Assembly: GCA_034687125.1 (NCBI GenBank)
Contig: JAQGBZ010000292.1
Coordinates: 1-64,000, forward strand
Direction: 5' to 3'
DNA from: Neelides folsomi
Lineage: Eukaryota; Arthropoda; Collembola; Neelipleona; Neelidae
DNA: 64,000 nt
Below are positions 1-38,300 of the stretch, piece after piece. Below the pieces are notes generated by a model, which was given only the letters and a program-made list of their open reading frames with translations, made no database searches and was not told where the DNA came from. Each line of letters starts with the position of its first letter. The first letter of the stretch is position 1. The position numbers and the translations under genes are program-made.

Positions 1-96
1 ATATAGGTTAGTTATTTTAGTATATTTTAGGTCATATTTTATAGTGATAATTATGATTAATTTATTAAATCGATGTCATTTTTAATAAAAATTCAC

Positions 97-465
97 CTTA
101 GTATCGTGAAGTGTCACCGATTTGACTCCCCCCAAAATGACATTTTTGGCGACTTCAACACCAAGTCCGCCAAGTCCCGAAATTAGAATCCTTGAAGCGG
201 CCATTCGCGTCATGGCTTCTTCTCCAAGTACGTAAAGTTGACGAGAGTAAAGTCCCTCATCGATGCCCGGTGGGGCTCCATTGGTAGCAGTCATGTTTGA
301 GCTGTTTCCGTTCGAAGAGTTCATGGAGTGTGGCAGAGGTTGATTTACAGATTCTTTTCCTGACCCGCTTCGGTCCTCGGAGTACGATCCTCCTCCTGCT
401 GCACTCAATCTAGGCTTCTTGCTAGGCGGAGAGGCAGGGATGTCAACGTTAGCAGCTCTGGACAT
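97..465 (-). CDS. UBA1: Ubiquitin-activating enzyme E1, first coding exon (partial gene)
   Basis: E1 enzyme that adenylates ubiquitin and passes it, via a catalytic cysteine, to E2 enzymes in nucleus and cytosol. Only the N-terminal 123 codons are here. Residues 1-65 are low-complexity (Ser, Gly, Asn) and carry a short basic NLS-like stretch, PPSKKPRLS, at the place where vertebrate UBA1 has its own. Next comes the inactive-adenylation-domain start: [15 protein letters not shown], then the nucleotide-fold glycine motif GLGGLG and [15 protein letters not shown], all typical of E1 and better conserved than anything else in the exon. The exon ends in phase 0 with AAG before a GT donor at 96-95; bases 1-96 are intron and the rest of the gene lies left of the window. 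ATG at 465 is the first in frame. Upstream, TTCTTAAAG could be the acceptor of a 5'UTR intron. Identification is secure; the extreme start is less so. Confidence 0.95.
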
Positions 466-1720
466 CGACGCTGCGGCCCGCTTTAAGAAATAGAATTTTC
501 AAAATTCTAAGGCTTATTAAATACACATTAATGATACAATATCAATGATATCGATGATATCTTGTAGATGATATAATATCGATTTATATAATATTGATTT
601 ATAAAAAATATTATAATTATAAATTATGACATTCTTGATGATCTTGTCGATGGTTTAATTAAATATTTAATATTTCCAAAGCTTTTCATTCTCTAGCAAC
701 TTGGCGAGTCATGGAATATGAATTTAGAAAAAAAAGTTAGGAACTGAGCCAAGTCAGCAGAAAATAGACTGAGAAAATGGGAAACCCAGCGGTGTGGATG
801 AGAAGTCAATGAGTTGCAAAGAAGGAGAAAAAACTGTACGTGGACTTTGAAATTGAAAGTTCCCCCATGTGGGGATGTTTCCCTTACCAAAAAGAAATTG
901 TAACGAAAAGGGCGAAGGGCGGCTGATGTTCGTCGCTTGACCTTTGGGTTGAGATTCAATTTTTGATGTCTTTGGGAGAGAAAAGGGAGGAAGAGGAAGA
1001 CAAGTCGGCTCGGAGTTCGACGACAGGACGAGTGATAGAAAGAAATTATACAAAGATCATTCTCCTCCAAATCACACACCGAAAGGGAAACATGGAAATG
1101 ATTTTTACATATCCTTTGGATACAAATGACACGTTACAGGATTGGAAGAGGATCCAAACCCGCCACATAACATTCTTGGATTCATCTCATGCTCTGACTT
1201 TGTTCAGGCAAGTAATAATAAATGACAGGTTGGATGTGGAAAGTGTGTGGAAAGGGGGAAGAACCACGTGAGGTTCCAGAATGTACGAGTATTGGATGGC
1301 GCGATTTGTTTGAATCTCGGTTAAATTAAATAATTAATTTTTCAGTTTTTCACAAAACGTTTTTCTTCTCTTCATTTACATTTATTTCTTCCTTATTATC
1401 GCTCTTTTGAATGTTTTCTTCAGATTCAGATTTCAAGATTGGAATAAGTTAACTTAACTTCTTAGTTAAGATATTAATAACATATTAACGAGAAAAACTC
1501 TGATTCAATAAATTTTATAAATTAAATTAACATTTAATTCTGTCAAAGTGAAATAAGTGTAAGTCCCGAAAGAACTGGAAGTTGAAAGGAAAAAGGTAAT
1601 ATTCGTGATATACAAGATTTATATATATTTTATTTGTGTAATTTAATGAATAAAATTAGATAAGTAAACATAAACCAAATAATGTGTTAGCATTAATCTT
1701 TTACATTTTTTATTATAGAA
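466..1720. promoter_or_regulatory. Divergent intergenic region, UBA1 / SMYD4 promoters and 5' leaders
   Basis: About 1.25 kb between two genes pointing away from each other, so it should hold both promoters. A CACGTG E-box at 1265-1270 sits inside a small inverted repeat (GAACC...GGTTC, 1261-1276). The sequence from about 690 to 1320 is less AT-rich than its flanks and gives overlapping open frames on both strands, but none has recognisable protein content. On the SMYD4 side, TTTATTATAG directly before AA-ATG (1717-1718) reads as the acceptor of a 5'UTR intron, with a candidate donor AAAAAG|GTAATATT near 1594. No TATA box stands out. Confidence 0.5.
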
Positions 1721-4528
1721 ATGGTCAATTTCTCTCAATTTTTTGTGGATTATGTTTGGAAGGAGAAATATTTGGATCCATCCGACCAAAGTTTTTGGTT
1801 AAAACTTGTGGCTCTTCAAAAAGTGAATCACGATAAAAACGAATTTGTCGGATTTTCACCATTAAAATGCATTGAACATGTTGTGAACAATTATGAATCT
1901 ATCAAGCTTCGGATAGAGAATGCTGGAAGTAAGTCTTAAAGACAAAGTTAATCGTAATTTCATTTTATAAATGCATTGTATTAATGTGTAGTGTGTACTG
2001 TTATCTTATGGTTTTTGTTAAGTTTAAAGTTATTTGCATTGAGAATGCGTAAATGAGTAATAAGCTCTAGGCGCCAGGCTTGCCGACTAGTCGGCAAAAT
2101 TAATTAAAATTCTTAGGTCTTGACCTATTATCTCTCCAGGAGTTGTCTCTTATCATTCCAATTCTAATAAGGTCACTTATTCTTATTTGAATATCTTTAC
2201 AGCTTGCGGAAAGTTTGACAAGAACTCTATTTATTTTCGAGAACTTGGGAATGCCGAATACAGGAATTTGAGATATGATCAATCATTAAGAGGTGAATAA
2301 AATTATTATTTATTATAAAATTATCATTTTAGCTACCCATTTGGATTTTTTTACAAAAATTATGTAGCTGTAATATACCTATTAAAAACATTAACATTTG
2401 GATTCATTTTTAGCTTACAATTTGGCAATTTGCTTTGCCCCTTCAAGTTGTGGTTATGAGTTAGCTTTGGCTTATTCAAACCGAGCTGCTTTGTTCATTC
2501 AAATCAACGAACCAAAACTTGCTTTAAAAGATGTTGAACTTGCGTTGGCTCAAAGACATCCAGAGGAGTTGTTAGAAAAACTTTTGACCAGGAAGAAAAA
2601 ATGTGAGGAGATGATCAAACAGTACAATTCTGCCATTGACATTGAACGTACAAAATTTACAAAGGATCTTTTCACACTCAAATCCCCATCGGATACGATT
2701 ACTCATGCTGAGGATTTTGTAAAAATTGAATCAAATTCTGAAAGAGGAAGACATTTAATTGTCACTAAAGATGTTTCTCCAGGTATTTTTACATCATTCT
2801 CATTCATTTCATAGATAAAAGATAATTCAACAGTAATGTACTGATACAAATATTTTAACATATTATGATTACATACTTATATTATAATTTTGATTATGCG
2901 TTTTAGGTACGGTTGTCGTTGTTGATGATCCTTTTGCAAAAGTTCTCATCTATGAACATTATTGGGAGTTTGAACATTGTCATTTCTGCCATAAACGAAT
3001 AAAACAGTGGATTCCTTGCACCAAATGCGTTTATGTAAATTGAACATGATGATGATTCTTAATTACATTACAATATTTAATTATCATTAAATTAATTAAT
3101 TTTAATTTATTAATTTTGTTAGGCCTGCTTTTGTGACGAAACTTGTCGAAATTCTGCTAACGAATCTTTTCATTTATACGAATGCGAAATTGGAAAATAT
3201 TTGAATTTCATGAGAGTTCATCGAGCAAATTTAATCGCTCTCCGAATTGTTACATCCATCGGTCCTAAGAAGTTATACCAATATTTCAAAGAAGGACAAA
3301 CTTTTCTTCTTGGGCCAAAATACGATTCATTGAGTTATGAAACCATCTACAACTTGATTTCTCATCCAGACAAACTTAAGCGAGAAGAAATCCTCCAATA
3401 TTCAACATTCGGAACAGAAATCACAACAGTTATGGAAAACGAAACTCCCTTTTTTGTCGATATTCCAAAGGTGGATGAAAAGGGGTTTAAAAACTACATT
3501 TCGAGCTTAATCCTTCAACATTTGTTCAATTTGCCTCCTAATGCCCACAGTTTGTTTGAAGCAACTTTCAGAAGAAATGGTCCGTTAAAGCAATCCGAAA
3601 TTAGATCAGGATCAAATAAAGAATACGGAGCTGGAGCTTTTGCTGTGCTTTCGCTTATCAATCATGCCTGTGATCCAAATGTTACAAGGTGATAATTTAA
3701 ATATAAAATTATATCCATAAATTATCGATAATAAATATAATTTTACATTTACATTAATAATGAATAGCAATATTGATTATTTTAATTATTCTTTTCAGAT
3801 TCAATTTATCAAATGGAAAGACTGCTGTTGTTGCTTTGCGTTATTTACGCGCCGGTGAAGAAATTCTGGATAATTACGGTGCTCATTATGCTGTTAATCC
3901 ATTTTATGAAAGAATGGAACATTTAGCAACGAATTATTACTTTAAATGTTCATGCGTTGCCTGCAAAAATATGTTTCCTTTGCTGCCTTTCAATCCGCCC
4001 GAAGTCTTCATCTGCTCAGCTTGTTCAAAAAAGTCTGTCGAATCTGTCAGATTCCAAAGTAAATTCATCACAAAGGTTAAATTGGATAAGACAAATGAAA
4101 CTTGCCGGATTTGTTCAGAAAAATATTCATTTGTTGGTTTGAATAAGAATTTGAACATGGCAATTGACAAGCAAATCAGTGCTTTTACTTCTGTCCTTCA
4201 AAACCAACCATTGGAGGTAAGAATTTGAATTTGTGTTTAATAGCTGTAATAAATTAATATTCGTTCTATTTCTATCTAGTAAATATTAACATATTTTAAT
4301 ATTCTCAATTAGTTTTTAGTTTACTATGTAAGATATAACAAATTGTAATTAATATTTGAATTTTTATAATTGGGTTTCTTGTTTTGATAACAGGCAATGG
4401 ACAAGCTAACTAGTGCAATGGAATTCTTCAACCTTAATTTGGTAATTCCTTATCTTAAAATCAACGAATCTGAAGAAACATTCAAGCAGGCAATCAATCT
4501 CATTATCCATTTCTCACAATATGCTTAA
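1721..4528 (+). CDS. SMYD4: SMYD4-like protein: TPR, MYND zinc finger and SET lysine methyltransferase
   Basis: Coding exons 1721-1928, 2203-2292, 2414-2782, 2907-3034, 3123-3688, 3799-4216 and 4394-4528 join in frame to 637 aa. Order: N-terminal helical region; TPR-like stretch about 85-165 (FRELGNAEYRN, LALAYSNRAALF); start of the split SET domain with SERGRHLIVTKDV near 205; MYND finger with C247/C250, C260/C263, C269/C273, H282/C286; SET core with NHACDPN near 445 and DNYG near 478; post-SET Cys cluster CSCVAC at 504-509 plus two further CxxC pairs. SMYD proteins transfer methyl groups from S-adenosylmethionine to lysines; SMYD4 is the TPR-bearing member. The AdoMet/zinc motifs look intact. 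The C-terminus is short: human SMYD4 is about 800 aa with a longer helical tail, whereas this ends 44 codons into the last exon. The start is the first ATG after a good acceptor. It is convergent with DCAF6. Family assignment is strong; substrate unknown. Confidence 0.9.
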
Positions 4529-5155: not shown

Positions 5156-8100
5156 TCAATTGCCCTCGTCTCTTCTTCGCGCATCAATACCTCCACCAAT
5201 TGGCAAATCTTCGTTTCTACCACGGCGAATGTGGTTCAACACAGATAACATCCTGCATTTTAATTTTAATCATTATTTAACAATGCAAAATTTAATCTAA
5301 TGGATAATCAAAAATTGAATAATATTGTATAATCTGTTAAAATATCATTTATTTAATTTAAACCTTATCATGAATCCAGCTGGAACAGTAATTGTATCTA
5401 AAACAAATGAAAAATTACATTTACGTTTTCAATTGAAATAACTTAAAATTGCATGCTACTAACTTTAACTAACTTTAAGAAAATAATAAATGTGCAACTT
5501 AAACTATATTATCTATTAAATTATTAACTCACCTTTGGTTTCTTCTAGCATAATAGCATTTCTCTTCATCAACTGTCATGAATAACAAAAATATTTAAGA
5601 TACATAATATTGTTTATATCTAATAGTCAATCTAAAAAACACATTGTATGCCAAATAATGTAAATATAATTTTACCTCAGAAGTAGATTCAGCATCGAAT
5701 CCACACTTATCATTAATGGGAGCCCAGAGCTTCACATCATAGTCAATCCCTGACGACGCTAAAATGGGATCGAACGGATGTGGCTGAAGACAATTTACTA
5801 CCTGTTAATCCAACAAAGTTAAATTAATATAAATTAATTATTCATCTAATTATTCTGGTAAACTCTAATGTCTTACATGACTATCGGCTTCGATTGTGTA
5901 GACACATTTTCCAGTATCTCTATAAATTCATTGATAATTATGAAAATGAATTCCTTTAACATTTATTTAAATGATGTTAACTCTTACCTGTCCCAAAAGA
6001 AAATATGTCCACAATCTGACCCAGATATGATAAACTTGTCTCCCCAAAAGTTTGCTTCTTTGATCATCGTCCTATAAAGACAAACATATTAGATATTTGT
6101 TATTAAATATTATTTAGGTTTAAATAAGGCCATTAATGTCATAAAGTCAAATAAGGTCATATCGTAATATGAGAACGATGTAACACCTGGCATTCCTGTG
6201 TCCGTCATATTTCATGATAACTTTTCCTCCAGGCAAATTCTTCCAAATTTCGGACCTTAATTTTGTTCTATGACTCTCTTTTTCCTCATCTGGTTTTCTC
6301 TCTGGTTGTTTCTCAACAGGAGTAGGATTCATTTCCAAGTTCCTCTCCATTTCATTTCCAATCGACATCGAGATCCGACCAACACTTGGCCCTTCACTGG
6401 CGTAATTCAAATTGACTGATGGTTCCAAATGATGCCTTCATTTTGATCACAAAATTAAATTAAGATTAAAATATTTAAATATTATGCTAAAATTATAGTA
6501 TTATACTTCTGGCCATATGCCATAATCCATACAAACCCATATTCATGGATTGCTCATTTTCCATTTTAATAAATCTTACCTCTCAATGAAGTTGTCACGA
6601 AGAGAAGCCAATTGGTTTTCTAAATTAGGAATTGAATTTGCATGTTCCATTCCTAACTCCATTTGAGAAGGAGAAGGAGGAGTTCCTGCTTGCCCATCCC
6701 TTGAAGTTGATGGATCATCCAACGAATTGGCATTTCCAGAATTTCCTCTCTCATATGTTTCATTCAGCATCTGACTCAACACGAGAGTCATTCGTTCCAT
6801 TAAACTCGATTGAAGAGTTGGTCTTGCTTGGGCAATCTCTATTTATTTTTAAAAAAGATAAAAATTGTTAATGCATTCATAATATCTTTATTACTCTTTA
6901 CTTGTACATTAAATTGAATTTAATAAAAGTACCTCCGGATGCAGGATGATTTGGCCTTGCATTTGGTCCAGTATCTGACCAATCTCCTCTCAGTCGCAGT
7001 CTTCTCATTGTTGGCTTTTTCGCTCCTTTCCCTTTCATTTTTCGTGTTCCAGTGTTAAGTTCCATTGAGGGTTTATCTATTCCATCCTACATAGAAAATC
7101 ATAATGATAATACAATAGTATTTGCCAAAATGTATTATAGACTTTATAATACATTTAGATTTGTAACGAATTATCAAATTAATTTTTAAAATAGAAAATT
7201 GAACTTACATTGAGCCGGAACAAATAAACGTAGTCGGAAGAGAAAGAGGCAAGAAGTTCTTGACCATCTGGACTGTAGCAAATTGACGTTATTCTGTAAT
7301 ACCGTTCAGCTGTTTCCAAATCCGGAACCATAAGGCGTCGAATCAAACTCCCACTTTTGATTTGGGCTGAAAATTCGGAAGGAAATTTTAATTTTACAAA
7401 AATTAACATTTGAATCATAATGAGTTTTTTAGTATATAGTATAATATTTAGTATAATATACTTTCAATGGAACAGAGCCGTGTTCCCAATCGAAGTCTTC
7501 TTCTATCATAAATGCGCACCTGAAGAAATGACAAATTAGTATATTACATTGAGCAAGTTAGCAAATCTAAATACATTATATTAAAATGTTTATTCACTGA
7601 TTCATTATTATAAAGTAAAAAATAAAAAAACTACCGTGCTATCTGCAACTCCAACAGCGATTTCATACTGGCGGATAGGATTTACTGCCAGTGAAGTTAT
7701 AGCACGGTTACTATAAATCACGACATCTTGCTATAATATAAAATATAAAAATTAAAAACTCTGTTAATAATAAGAAAATAGCAGAAGCAAAAATTGTGAA
7801 TAACATACCGATTGATTCTCCCTTGCAGGATCATTCTAAAATAAGTGCAAAGTCATTAATTTTATTCTAACTAATTATACTATATAATCATTTTATAGAG
7901 TAAATATAAAAAATAATATTATCTTACGAGACAGTTGCAATTTTCTTTTATTCTGAGATCGTAATGTCGAACTGTTCCATCTTAAAGTAAATAGCAAAAT
8001 TAATTAAAAGCTCTTCGATTTTAAGAAATTAAATAGATGAAAATGTACAAAGAAAATATAGCCATTTATAAAAAAATAGTTTACCTTCACCACAACTTAA

Positions 8101-8778
8101 AAAAGTGTATGGTTCACTTTGAACGACAGTGAGTTTGTAAGCCGTTCCATCGTGACACTGAAAACGAGAATGCGAATTCTCTTCTGGAGATCGGTTAATA
8201 TCTATTACAAATCAAAAAAATTCAATTCATATTTTAATTTCCTATTTGATGGTATTTTGTTGAAAATTTAGGAAATTACCAGTGTAAAGAATTACTCCGT
8301 CTCCTGAACAGGAGACAATTCTTTCATCGGAAGATGCAGGCAGAAATCGAGCGGAAAAGATGTTTGACGAATGGGATGTTTTATAGTCGTAAAGAACAGT
8401 TCCTTCATATCCAAATGCATCGGTCATTTTCAAATGTAGATCGTCGGAACCAGAAAGGATCAAATTGCCACTTTCGTTCCATGAAAGTGAATTAACACAG
8501 CCTTCATGATTAGCTAATGATGCACGATAACTCCCAAGACGTTGCACCATGTCAAGATTATCTATAAAATAACGTAAAATCAGTTTTCGTATTTACATTA
8601 GTTTACTTTATTATTCATATTTATTAATTAAATATAAGATAAAAAGATACTTATAAATTGAAATGTTTGTTAAACCTTTAGCCAAATTGTAGACAAGACT
8701 CCTTTGCCCTGCATAGTTCTTGTAGTCGGTTAGTGCTTGGAAAAGTGTCAAATTCCGATTCTCTCGCCCCCAATTCAT
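5156..8778 (-). CDS. DCAF6: DDB1- and CUL4-associated factor 6 (NRIP-type WD40 protein)
   Basis: Seventeen coding exons in transcript order: 8778-8676, 8561-8280, 8201-8085, 7980-7928, 7835-7809, 7730-7635, 7519-7462, 7366-7209, 7086-6933, 6838-6580, 6435-6187, 6071-5988, 5919-5877, 5801-5676, 5572-5533, 5397-5364, 5252-5156. They join in frame to 659 aa. DCAF6 is a substrate receptor for the CUL4-DDB1 ubiquitin ligase and, in vertebrates, a nuclear-receptor coactivator. N-terminal WD repeats include [27 protein letters not shown] and FLSCGEDGTV; Y-D-x-R boxes (HYDLR, IYDRR) match the DDB1-contact WDxR motif. A middle linker keeps [13 protein letters not shown], nearly identical to the vertebrate protein, and two C-terminal WD repeats follow ([37 protein letters not shown]). 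The linker is much shorter than in human (about 860 aa total) and I see no IQ motif. ATG 8778 lies 15 bases inside its exon after a likely 5'UTR-intron acceptor; an earlier in-frame start was not found. Confidence 0.95.
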
Positions 8779-10594: not shown

Positions 10595-12059
10595 TTATGC
10601 ATCCCATTCACAGCCATCAATTAAAATTCTGACAACATTTTCGAGTCCAGCCTTATCTTCTTCATCGAATGCTGAAAATAGATTTTTAACTAGAAGATTC
10701 AGAAACTACAACTTGTAATTAGACAATTTTTTGATAATCAATGAAGAATTTGAAAGTCTTTTAGATTTAGATTTGTATCCTAAATTATTTCTACAGATAG
10801 ATAAGTAAAAGTTGTATTGTATTGTAATAGTCTAAAATTACCATCTGTCACTTCGTCGTCAATATCTAAAACGCCTATCATATCATTCTGAAATATTCAT
10901 TTTATAGCACATAATAAATTTATAGTTTATAAGTTACAAGGATTACAAAGTGCATTCACTTCATATTGTTGTCTGAGTTTGAAAAATCCGCCTATTTCCA
11001 GCGATACGAATTTAGTTTATTGTTACTATTAATTGTAGTACATCATATACAAATTACTTATAAATAACTATAGAGTGAAATACAATAAATTAAACTTATA
11101 AACACTGATATAAAGTTAACTGAATAAACATGAACTGAAATATTTAATTGATTAAACATGATTTAAAGTTTTAAGTCAAATGTTCAAAATAATAAAAAAT
11201 GGATTTATATTATTTTATCTTTGCATTACTACAGTTAAAAGTTACAACAAACTAAATTCGTATCGCTGGAAATAATTAGGCGGATTTTTCAAACTCAGAC
11301 AACAATTTGAAGTGAATGCACTGTAGTATGTATTCATTTAAAATATATTGCATAAATAAACAAAGTATCAATATTTTACATACCTCTTTGCAAATGAGAG
11401 GAACAACAATCTCGGAGTTTGAATTTGAGTCACACGCTATATGACCAGGAAAATCATGAACGTTAGGAACAACTTGGGTCAATTTGTCTTCGGCCGCTTT
11501 CCCGCAAACTCCTTTGCCAATTTTGATTTTTGTACACGCCACCTTTATAATAAATAATATGTATAAATTATAATCCCATCCAATTCATAAAATTCCATGC
11601 CAATCAAATAAATGAAAGCAATTGTTAAATACTTAACACAAAAAGTCAGTCTCAATATTTTCTTAATGTAGTTTTATTACCTTTCCTTGAAATGGTCCAA
11701 GAATCAAATAATTTGGGTCTCTTTTATCTTTCAAATAAAATCCAACCCAATTGACCTTCCCGTTAAATATGTCAAGCCCGTTCATTCCATGGTATATCAA
11801 TGAAGATACGTTCGCCAAATTTGTCACCTAATATACAAATACATAAAGAGGGTTAATTTGTGAAACTTTGGAGTTGAAACTAAATGAAAATTTTACAATC
11901 ACTAAAGTGCTGTGATGATGAATAATTTGGATTTACAGAGTTATTCTGCTTTAATATTACCCAATAAGATTCTCCATGAATCAACGCTTTAACTTGTACT
12001 AAAAGTTCTTTGTAAAAGGCCTCTTTTGTTAATTTCGGATCAAAATAAGTATTGAACAT
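10595..12059 (-). CDS. Free methionine-(R)-S-oxide reductase, GAF domain (fRMsr / MsrC type)
   Basis: Five coding exons in transcript order, 12059-11961, 11827-11681, 11542-11384, 10887-10842 and 10671-10595, joining in frame to 175 aa, the usual length of this family (about 165-180). The enzyme reduces free L-methionine-(R)-S-oxide to methionine with reducing power from thioredoxin; it is a single GAF domain. Signatures: LILGPFQGK, then CTKIKIGKGVCGKA and FPGHIACDSNSNSEIVVPL, and MIGVLDID. Cysteines at 85, 95 and 119 have the same 10- and 24-residue spacing as the three E. coli cysteines (84, 94, 118), so activity is likely. The start is the only sensible ATG; a 5'UTR intron probably precedes it. 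Introns, base composition and flanking animal genes argue against bacterial contamination. The family is usually described as bacterial, fungal and protist, so its presence here is unusual. Identification is very secure. Confidence 0.95.
10946..11323. mobile_element. Palindromic MITE-like element with TA target duplication, in an fRMsr intron
   Basis: Two inverted arms of about 92-95 bp (10946-11040 and 11229-11323) are nearly identical when one is reversed: about five substitutions, one 4-base insertion (ATTA near 11273) and a 2-base difference at the tip. The loop is about 188 bp of AT-rich DNA. The tips read CA(AA)GTGCATTCACTTC and CAGTGCATTCACTTC, each bordered by TA (10944-10945, 11324-11325), as expected for Tc1/mariner-type elements. 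No transposase ORF, so it is non-autonomous. It lies in the 497-bp intron between exons 3 and 4 and has not disturbed splicing signals. The arms would form a long hairpin in the pre-mRNA. Confidence 0.65.
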
Positions 12060-35300: not shown

Positions 35301-38300
35301 GGGTAGGATTCATTTACTGCACAAAATAAGACGTTTTTACTCAAATTATTTTAATTGAAACTTCCACTTTGGTGTTGCTGGTTCTCTTCATTTTTGTTTT
35401 ACTAGAATTTACAAGTATTTCTGAATTAGTCCTCATTTTAGTGGAAAAGTAATTTCATAAAAGACTGTTTTTGGATATGACGATTATTCGTAATTTGAAA
35501 ACTTTATTTTTATAGTTAAATCGTTACAAATATAAAGTTTAATAATGTAATTGTATTATTTTTTAGCATCAAGCCACCGCCGAAGGACGGAGTTGCAAAG
35601 AGTAATCCATCGAAGCGGCATCGAGAGCGTCTCAACGCGGAGTTGGACACATTGGCTTCTCTCCTCCCCTTCGAACAGAACATCCTCTCCAAGTTGGACC
35701 GCCTCTCAATCCTTCGACTTGCCGTTTCTTACCTTAGAACAAAATCTTACTTTGGGGGTAAGTCACATCTTTTCATTTTAAATCAGATGCATTTATTTCA
35801 GATATTTTCATCAAATCATATTAATTAAGCAGAGTGCAAAACTCATGATTCATTAAATTCTTAAAACTGTAAAAAGATTTAGCTTGCACATTAAAAATTC
35901 CAGTTTTCGAATCTATCTAATAAAATCTATCAATTATCAATTTAATTAAGATAAAGAATTAATTTATCCGAAAGTAATAGCAAAAGTAAGATTATGACTG
36001 CTGTGGATGGTTGAATTGTAAATTAATGGGAGGACAAATGACTTCCGACCGCCGATTCGGTTCGAAGCAGATGTATACCATAAATAAGGCCTGAGGGGTA
36101 CACAGAAGGTCCATCGGATCCAAATTCCTAATGCCCCATGAATCCTTACGTCGTAACTCTTCCCTTACATGCTTTCTTCCTCCAGACTTGTACATTTATA
36201 CTAGTTATTTCAAAAAAGGAGAAATGTAAATATACTCACAATACATACATAATTTATAAACATTTTTAACCAGAGTTTACAATAAGAGTTTACATTAAGA
36301 GTTTTACAATAAAAGCATAAAATTGCAGTAAACTCGTAATTCAGTATGTCGAAAGACCAACAAACTTTCGCAAAATATTTGTGATATTGTTGGATTATAT
36401 TAAATTACAGCAATCGTCCTTTTTTGTATCTTGAGTGAAGGTGTGAAAAGTTTTTTATTTCCCTTGGGAGATTTTCTTAAAGTGATCACGAAAGAGGTGC
36501 TGTATATGGAAGTCTCCCCCTTGGCACCTCCCTCACAATTAAGAATCAATTAATGTGTGTGTATTTTGCCGTGTCAATATGTCAGTGTAGTGAGTGGCCC
36601 CCTGGTGTCTCCTCGAAATCGGTGGAGAGGCCGAGAAGACAAATTTGGTTTGGCAGGGGGAAGCCAGCAGGGATTTCTTAACACGGGTCTCCGGTGAACG
36701 GACCCCTACCTCGACTCCTTACATCATCCCAAAAACACCTTCACAAGAACGTCCCTCATCTCGTCTCCACTCATTGTAGACCAAAGTGAGTAAAATACGA
36801 GGGGAAAGGAATCTCTCGACTGTATCAATTAACGGTCGTGAGCGGAGGAGGAGGATCGATGGAGCTAATCCCGAATAGCAGAATACACACACACAACCTT
36901 CACCTGCCCACACCACACCGCGGATCGATCCCCATTTGACTCTCCAACTCCCACGGAAAAGGGAGAAACACCAAGTTGTTTCTATACAAGAACAACACAA
37001 TACGGGGTCTAATGTGTGTAGCTTTTCTATCCCAATACAGGGATGGATAGAATACCTCATGAGAGTATATTTATCTTACTGACAATGCGGAAGGCTCTCC
37101 ATTGTATCTCTTTCTCTAAATTAACTCTCACTGGCGACTGACACCCATCAGACTCGCTCCCAGTATTCATCAATTTGTCACTACGTCTTCATTTAATAAC
37201 TTTTCAATACAACTCTCACTTTCATCTATTTTACCAATATATGATATCATTTGATCAAAGTACATACATTACTTGTAATAGTACAGATATTTCTAAGAAA
37301 CTTTAGTTATTGGATAGTGACAGCTTTGGACTAGCGTTAGTTGATATAACTTTATTTGGGAGACTTTCTAGTTATAAACTATGAGAGGGAGTTCCCTAGA
37401 GGGAAATTTAATGCAATTTTACGACGATTGTTAAATGGATGATCCTTGTTGGAACTCATTGGGCTAAGCTCATCCTTTTATTCTACCGCGTCCCACGAGA
37501 CTTGGTTGTCCCGTTTGTTCAACATTAAGAATTTTGATAATTGAATTAAACTCCTCCGCATAAGAGTACTGAAGCCGTTTGGAAATTGAACGAATTTTCA
37601 AATTATTCTATAGTTATTAGGTTATTACTGTAGTTGGAGTAGGGAACAGAGAGGAAATGTTTATTACCTCAAATACCAGCCGAGATGATTATGTATAAAT
37701 TTTGGAGTAAAGGATTTTGAAGGTATCTTTGGGAGAGTCGTAAAACGTAAAAGGATCATTAGGGGAGAAGTCGATGAGATATTAATTTTTGAGGGGAGAG
37801 GTGATCCTGGAAAGGGACAGACGACGTGTGTATTTGGTAGAGAAAGAAGAGGGATAATGAGTCAACTAATTGATGAACCCTGGACAGACTTGATTAACTT
37901 GTCATTCCCCGAATGTTCCTCAGGAGGGTTCCAATCCCCTCCATTTAATATCACTTTCCCTAATTCAACATACTGAGCCCTTCCCTTTTGTTACTCCTAC
38001 GCTCAATCCTTTCCCTATAACTTACCCTCCATGTTGTCAACCAACAGTATATTTTATGTAAAAGTATATCCATGTTCTGCATATTTCAATTTCAATACCT
38101 TTCCATATATTGGACCATCAATAGGAGAAGCTTCCTAAAATATGTAACAGTTTGAAGATATGCCCTTTTCATTTCCCTTTCTATTTTCTATTGTTAATCC
38201 AAGCCTTTGTTATTTGATAGGAATTGATACAGCAAATATTGGGGATGCATTTTATATCAACAGTTCATTTTATTTTAATTTTTCGACTTGTTTACTGCGG

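Follow-up and report, generated by a model that had tools for sequence, protein, structure and literature searches.

Free methionine-(R)-sulfoxide reductase (fRMsr) is described in the literature as an enzyme of microorganisms. Passages in three publications state that it is confined to unicellular organisms (PMC4598790), that it is so far known only from prokaryotes or unicellular eukaryotes (PMC6316033) and that it has been lost in metazoa, the yeast enzyme having prolonged lifespan when it was put into flies (PMC5798039). For the bacterial and yeast enzymes, a CysA/CysR scheme involving an intrachain disulfide is given in the relevant section of PMC6211008. A first-pass annotation of the DNA analysed here had likewise referred to fRMsr as missing from multicellular animals, and the passages of the former three publications agree with that statement. 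Among the titles listed from open-licence PMC, no report of an animal's own fRMsr gene was found; sequence databases could well contain annotated but unpublished animal copies.

The gene under study is located within a 64-kb stretch of DNA, referred to below as the window, and is considered, with a probability of approximately 0.86, to represent a working, yeast-like nuclear fRMsr gene of a pancrustacean arthropod with a small genome. Based on its splice sites, the gene was shown to consist of five exons on the minus strand (12059..10595), which when joined represent a 528-nt reading frame specifying a protein of 175 aa, and no stop codon or frameshift was observed in any of these exons. The four introns (133, 138, 496 and 170 nt, with phases 0, 0, 0 and 1) are all bordered by GT and AG. 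The ATG start codon (12059-12057) encodes the first Met in frame and is preceded by an in-frame stop that begins 27 nt upstream, while the TAA stop codon ends at 10595 and is followed by an AATAAA sequence starting at +374 nt. The five-exon gene at 10595..12059 that had been proposed in the first-pass annotation was located exactly, with GT-AG borders at 4/4 introns.

The copy number of the gene was assessed by searching the whole 75.1-Mb assembly at E <= 1. Matches were limited to the gene's own exons, four of which were recovered with the 46-nt exon left unmatched, and no second fRMsr copy was detected in the assembly at this threshold. A search of the whole genome with the GAF_2 profile did not return a match, which we think is due to the short length of the exons. 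The coordinates of the gene, its neighbours and an intronic repeat are listed in Table 1.

Table 1. Features of the fRMsr gene and its surroundings in the 64-kb window
Feature	Position	Strand	Evidence or remarks
fRMsr exon 1 (ATG, residues 1-33)	11961..12059	-	GT donor after TGG; first Met of frame
fRMsr exon 2 (residues 34-82; NWVGFYL, GPFQGK)	11681..11827	-	AG/GT sites, phase 0; matched in genome search
fRMsr exon 3 (residues 83-135; C85, C95, C119)	11384..11542	-	AG/GT sites; cysteines conserved
fRMsr exon 4 (residues 136-150 plus base 1 of codon 151; GVLDID, D143/D145)	10842..10887	-	AG/GT sites, ends in phase 1
fRMsr exon 5 (bases 2-3 of codon 151 through residue 175, plus stop)	10595..10671	-	AG acceptor, TAA
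Fold-back (MITE-like) repeat within intron 3	10949..11322	.	Inverted arms: 49 nt at 96% and 64 nt at 83%
Ubiquitin E1 (UBA1), N-terminal exon	85..498	-	phmmer E 4.4e-25; ThiF by Pfam
WD40 gene, DCAF6-like, several exons	6150..8592	-	Open frames; Pfam WD40 at 8245-8592; DCAF8 among PDB matches
AhR/spineless orthologue, bHLH exon	35520..35825	+	Matches aryl hydrocarbon receptor in phmmer (E 1.9e-22)

The fRMsr gene belongs to the nuclear genome of the animal. Its third intron harbours a fold-back repeat of 374 nt, in the absence of which the intron would measure 122 nt, similar to the other introns. When this repeat was used as a query (382 nt), 113 matching pieces were obtained on 39 contigs, i.e. 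on 38 contigs besides that of the window, where the number of pieces does not equal the number of copies, as fold-back copies are often counted on both strands. Since the repeat in intron 3 matches other contigs, the fRMsr gene sits among the host genome's own repeats. DNA of a fungus, a protist or a food organism that was assembled into the genome as a contaminant would be in keeping with the absence of the family from animals, as described in the passage of PMC5798039, yet AhR/spineless and UBA1 are present on the same 64-kb stretch, in which no N bases were found, and the intron 3 repeat is shared with the 38 other contigs. Contamination was rejected on the basis of this host repeat and the animal neighbours, and is regarded as extremely improbable, barring a chimeric contig. 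The claim that the gene resides in an arthropod genome is consequently upheld by its neighbours, its introns and the repeat that intron 3 has in common with other contigs. The flanking genes had been named DCAF6 and spineless; the latter assignment was corroborated by phmmer, while the WD40 neighbour is tentatively taken to be DCAF6.

Several further observations were made on the window and the assembly. A gene on the plus strand of the window (1697-4225), of which two exons were tried against Pfam without a match, presumably encodes a SET/MYND (SMYD4-type) protein, as judged by its translation. On the mitochondrial contig (C742; 15,157 bases), trnL2 is located between cox1 and cox2 and trnN was not called by ARAGORN; this is the ancestral pancrustacean gene order, in agreement with an arthropod host, and the COX1 translation appears springtail-like. 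The springtail assemblies given in the relevant part of PMC8138834 are larger (166-381 Mb) than the present one of 75.1 Mb. Matches to MsrB were observed on three contigs (C53, C407 and C276) and matches to MsrA on two (C222 and C3), and the Msr set thus appears fuller than that of Drosophila, for which a single MsrA and a single MsrB are mentioned in the passage of PMC5798039.

Sequence comparison confirmed the deduced product as an intact member of the fRMsr family (EC 1.8.4.14). The protein was matched by the Pfam GAF profile (PF01590) with a score of 32.2 bits against a cut-off of 22.4, fell slightly under the cut-off of the Pfam GAF_2 profile and was not matched by any of the NCBIfam profiles. 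A single GAF domain spans most of its length (residues 58-164 according to PF01590, and residues 6-171 in the phmmer alignment to yeast YKL069W). Using phmmer against the PDB, 10 distinct sequences were retrieved at E <= 0.01, of which eight are fRMsr-like with E values from 1e-45 to 5e-28, headed by yeast YKL069W (E 1.2e-45) and including yebR (E 4.3e-37) and 3mmh (E 2.1e-31), the two versions of Ta0848 being far weaker matches. Identities over the aligned parts were 47% for yeast, 48% for 5hl6, 54% for 3ksf (which we take to be the S. aureus protein) and 48% for yebR (presumably the E. coli protein). Only 3mmh carries the name methionine-R-sulfoxide reductase among the matched PDB chains, the rest being named GAF or uncharacterised proteins; these remaining chains are assumed to be fRMsr, in part on the basis of passages on the yeast, E. 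coli and Thermoplasma enzymes. On this assumption, the window protein lies nearer to fRMsr than to other GAF proteins.

The conservation of individual residues was assessed against 183 bacterial homologues, the selection of which is described below. Each of C85, C95 and C119 was found to be Cys in all 183 sequences as well as in yeast, and their spacing (10 and 24) is that of yebR (PDB 1vhm), in line with the E. coli spacing that had been claimed for them. Among the 40 columns that are at least 90% conserved in the 183 bacteria, the window protein keeps 39, with D in place of S146 as its sole change, and yeast keeps 36. W60, Y64, E126, D143 and D145, which we take to be substrate-pocket residues, are all within the 39 columns kept. 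As reductase activity is predicted from the sequence and the GAF fold is widely used in sensing, the gene might instead encode a GAF protein devoid of this activity, acting as a sensor or undergoing decay. This reading is deemed quite unlikely in view of the retained cysteines and conserved columns and the uninterrupted frame across five exons.

If the protein functions as other members of its family do, its GAF pocket would bind free L-Met-R-O, and Cys119, assumed to be the catalytic Cys from work on the E. coli and yeast enzymes, would attack the sulfoxide, yielding Met and a sulfenic acid. The resolving Cys85, with Cys95 as a possible second, would subsequently form a disulfide to be reduced by thioredoxin. 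Such an enzyme would enable the animal to salvage free Met-R-O, a substrate that MsrB is expected to reduce poorly and MsrA not at all.

For the phylogenetic comparison, 230 bacterial loci were considered. Of these, 80 were derived from a collection scan that yielded at least 593 stretches, and they do not represent the top 80 of that collection. The other 150 were obtained by searching 1,634 genomes drawn from five phyla, with some genomes present in both sets; the yeast sequence was added from the PDB. A blastp match was obtained for 226 of the 230 loci, and 183 were kept (>=100 bits, with the alignment starting by residue 25). Reduction to <70% mutual identity left 112 rows, the best-scoring 95 of which were combined with yeast, three bacterial PDB sequences and the window protein into a tree of 100 rows. 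Window residues 7, 50-56, 69-71 and 133 were omitted from this tree, which thus excluded the loop-insert residues (50-56). Yeast served as the sole eukaryotic comparator in both the tree and the indel comparison.

In the resulting tree, the window and yeast proteins were placed as sisters with a support of 99/86, where the yeast branch is long (1.96) and the bootstrap unsettled. The tree that had been proposed in the first-pass annotation was accordingly realized in part, with bacteria and one fungus (yeast), and in it the window protein groups with yeast. The loop from Y45 to N59, assessed separately, comprises 13 residues in the window protein and 10 in yeast, compared with 5-7 in 183/183 bacteria; the insert is therefore common to the window and yeast proteins and occurs in 0/183 bacteria. 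A second indel (Y64 to G77) was rejected as a marker, as some bacteria equal or exceed its length.

Genomes with a match at E <= 0.001, a count that takes in distant GAF proteins, amounted to 165/398, 195/296, 61/246, 34/296 and 93/398 for the phyla of G001 to G005, respectively. No close bacterial relative was present among the matches listed from genomes of the five phyla: among these, identity peaks at 63%, though only for a partial alignment (residues 56-166); over most of the protein it reaches 59%, in one genome (G484; residues 11-171). No relatives were found in the viral contigs searched.

Horizontal acquisition of the gene from a bacterial donor, with introns gained afterwards, would be consistent with the raw identities, which are highest for Bacteroidota-phylum proteins (53-55%) and exceed the 47% of yeast; for the Bacteroidota-phylum locus L130, values of 53.6% by blastp and 55% on the tree alignment were obtained. 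In a quick tree built without yeast, the window row was moreover not part of any starred group, and an AU test did not reject the joining of the window protein with L237 (p 0.070). The same test rejected its joining with the best Bacteroidota-phylum trio (p 0.035) and with a Burkholderia group (p 0.012). All groups were picked after the tree had been seen, and the p values carry less weight for that reason. Bacterial transfer is disfavoured because of the tree grouping with yeast and the loop indel, and the four introns of the gene also speak against it. It is accordingly viewed as an improbable origin, and a recent bacterial donor appears unlikely from the sequences compared.

The origin of the gene is old. 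The earlier claim that it represents either an ancestral gene or an old transfer with subsequent intron gain was thus narrowed: a bacterial donor is disfavoured, while retention and an old fungal transfer remain. Retention of the gene from the animal-fungal ancestor is somewhat favoured, whereas acquisition long ago from a fungal or other eukaryotic donor is a tentative second choice; the two are inseparable because yeast is the only eukaryotic sequence compared. A transfer of the latter kind, in which the arthropod lineage either received the introns together with the gene or gained them later, is possible though less probable than retention. Its nearest tree partner is fungal (99/86), the loop insert is present in both proteins, and the host, if it is a springtail, may eat fungi; the loss of the gene in animals, according to the passage of PMC5798039, also fits such a transfer. 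On the other hand, an identity of only 47% to yeast rules out a yeast-like donor in recent times, and nesting within fungi cannot be shown with a single fungal comparator. The fuller scenario built on retention, in which the ancestor of animals already possessed fRMsr and at least one arthropod lineage kept it as a working, intron-bearing gene, with many losses elsewhere, is given about even odds.

An fRMsr gene in an arthropod contradicts the published statement of its loss in metazoa, would provide a natural test of direct free Met-R-O repair in an animal, and bears on the question of whether such a gene was inherited or was acquired from a fungus. If ancestral retention is true, the published view of metazoan loss would be wrong, and animals carrying the gene could be compared with non-carriers for free Met-R-O, stress resistance and lifespan.

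Among the known systems, the closest is the fRMsr of Saccharomyces cerevisiae (YKL069W; PDB 1f5m and 3ko6), which shares with the window protein the GAF family, the three cysteines, the loop insert before NWxGFY and a sister position in the tree; it differs in its fungal host, in sharing only 47% identity and in having a loop of 10 rather than 13 residues. The yebR protein (fRMsr/MsrC; PDB 1vhm) exhibits the same Cys spacing (10 and 24) and the GPFQGK, GHIACD, SEIV.P and GVLDID motifs, but is 48% identical over the aligned part and is devoid of the loop insert. The type II archaeal fRMsr (PDB 4mmn; Ta0848), presumably the Thermoplasma enzyme of PMC6211008, is a distant homologue (E 1.6e-10). 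It differs in that no disulfide is formed between Cys60 and the catalytic Cys84, as stated in the relevant section of PMC6211008. The enzyme described here is hence of a well-known kind, and it is its occurrence in an animal that is taxonomically surprising, rather than representing a new kind of system.
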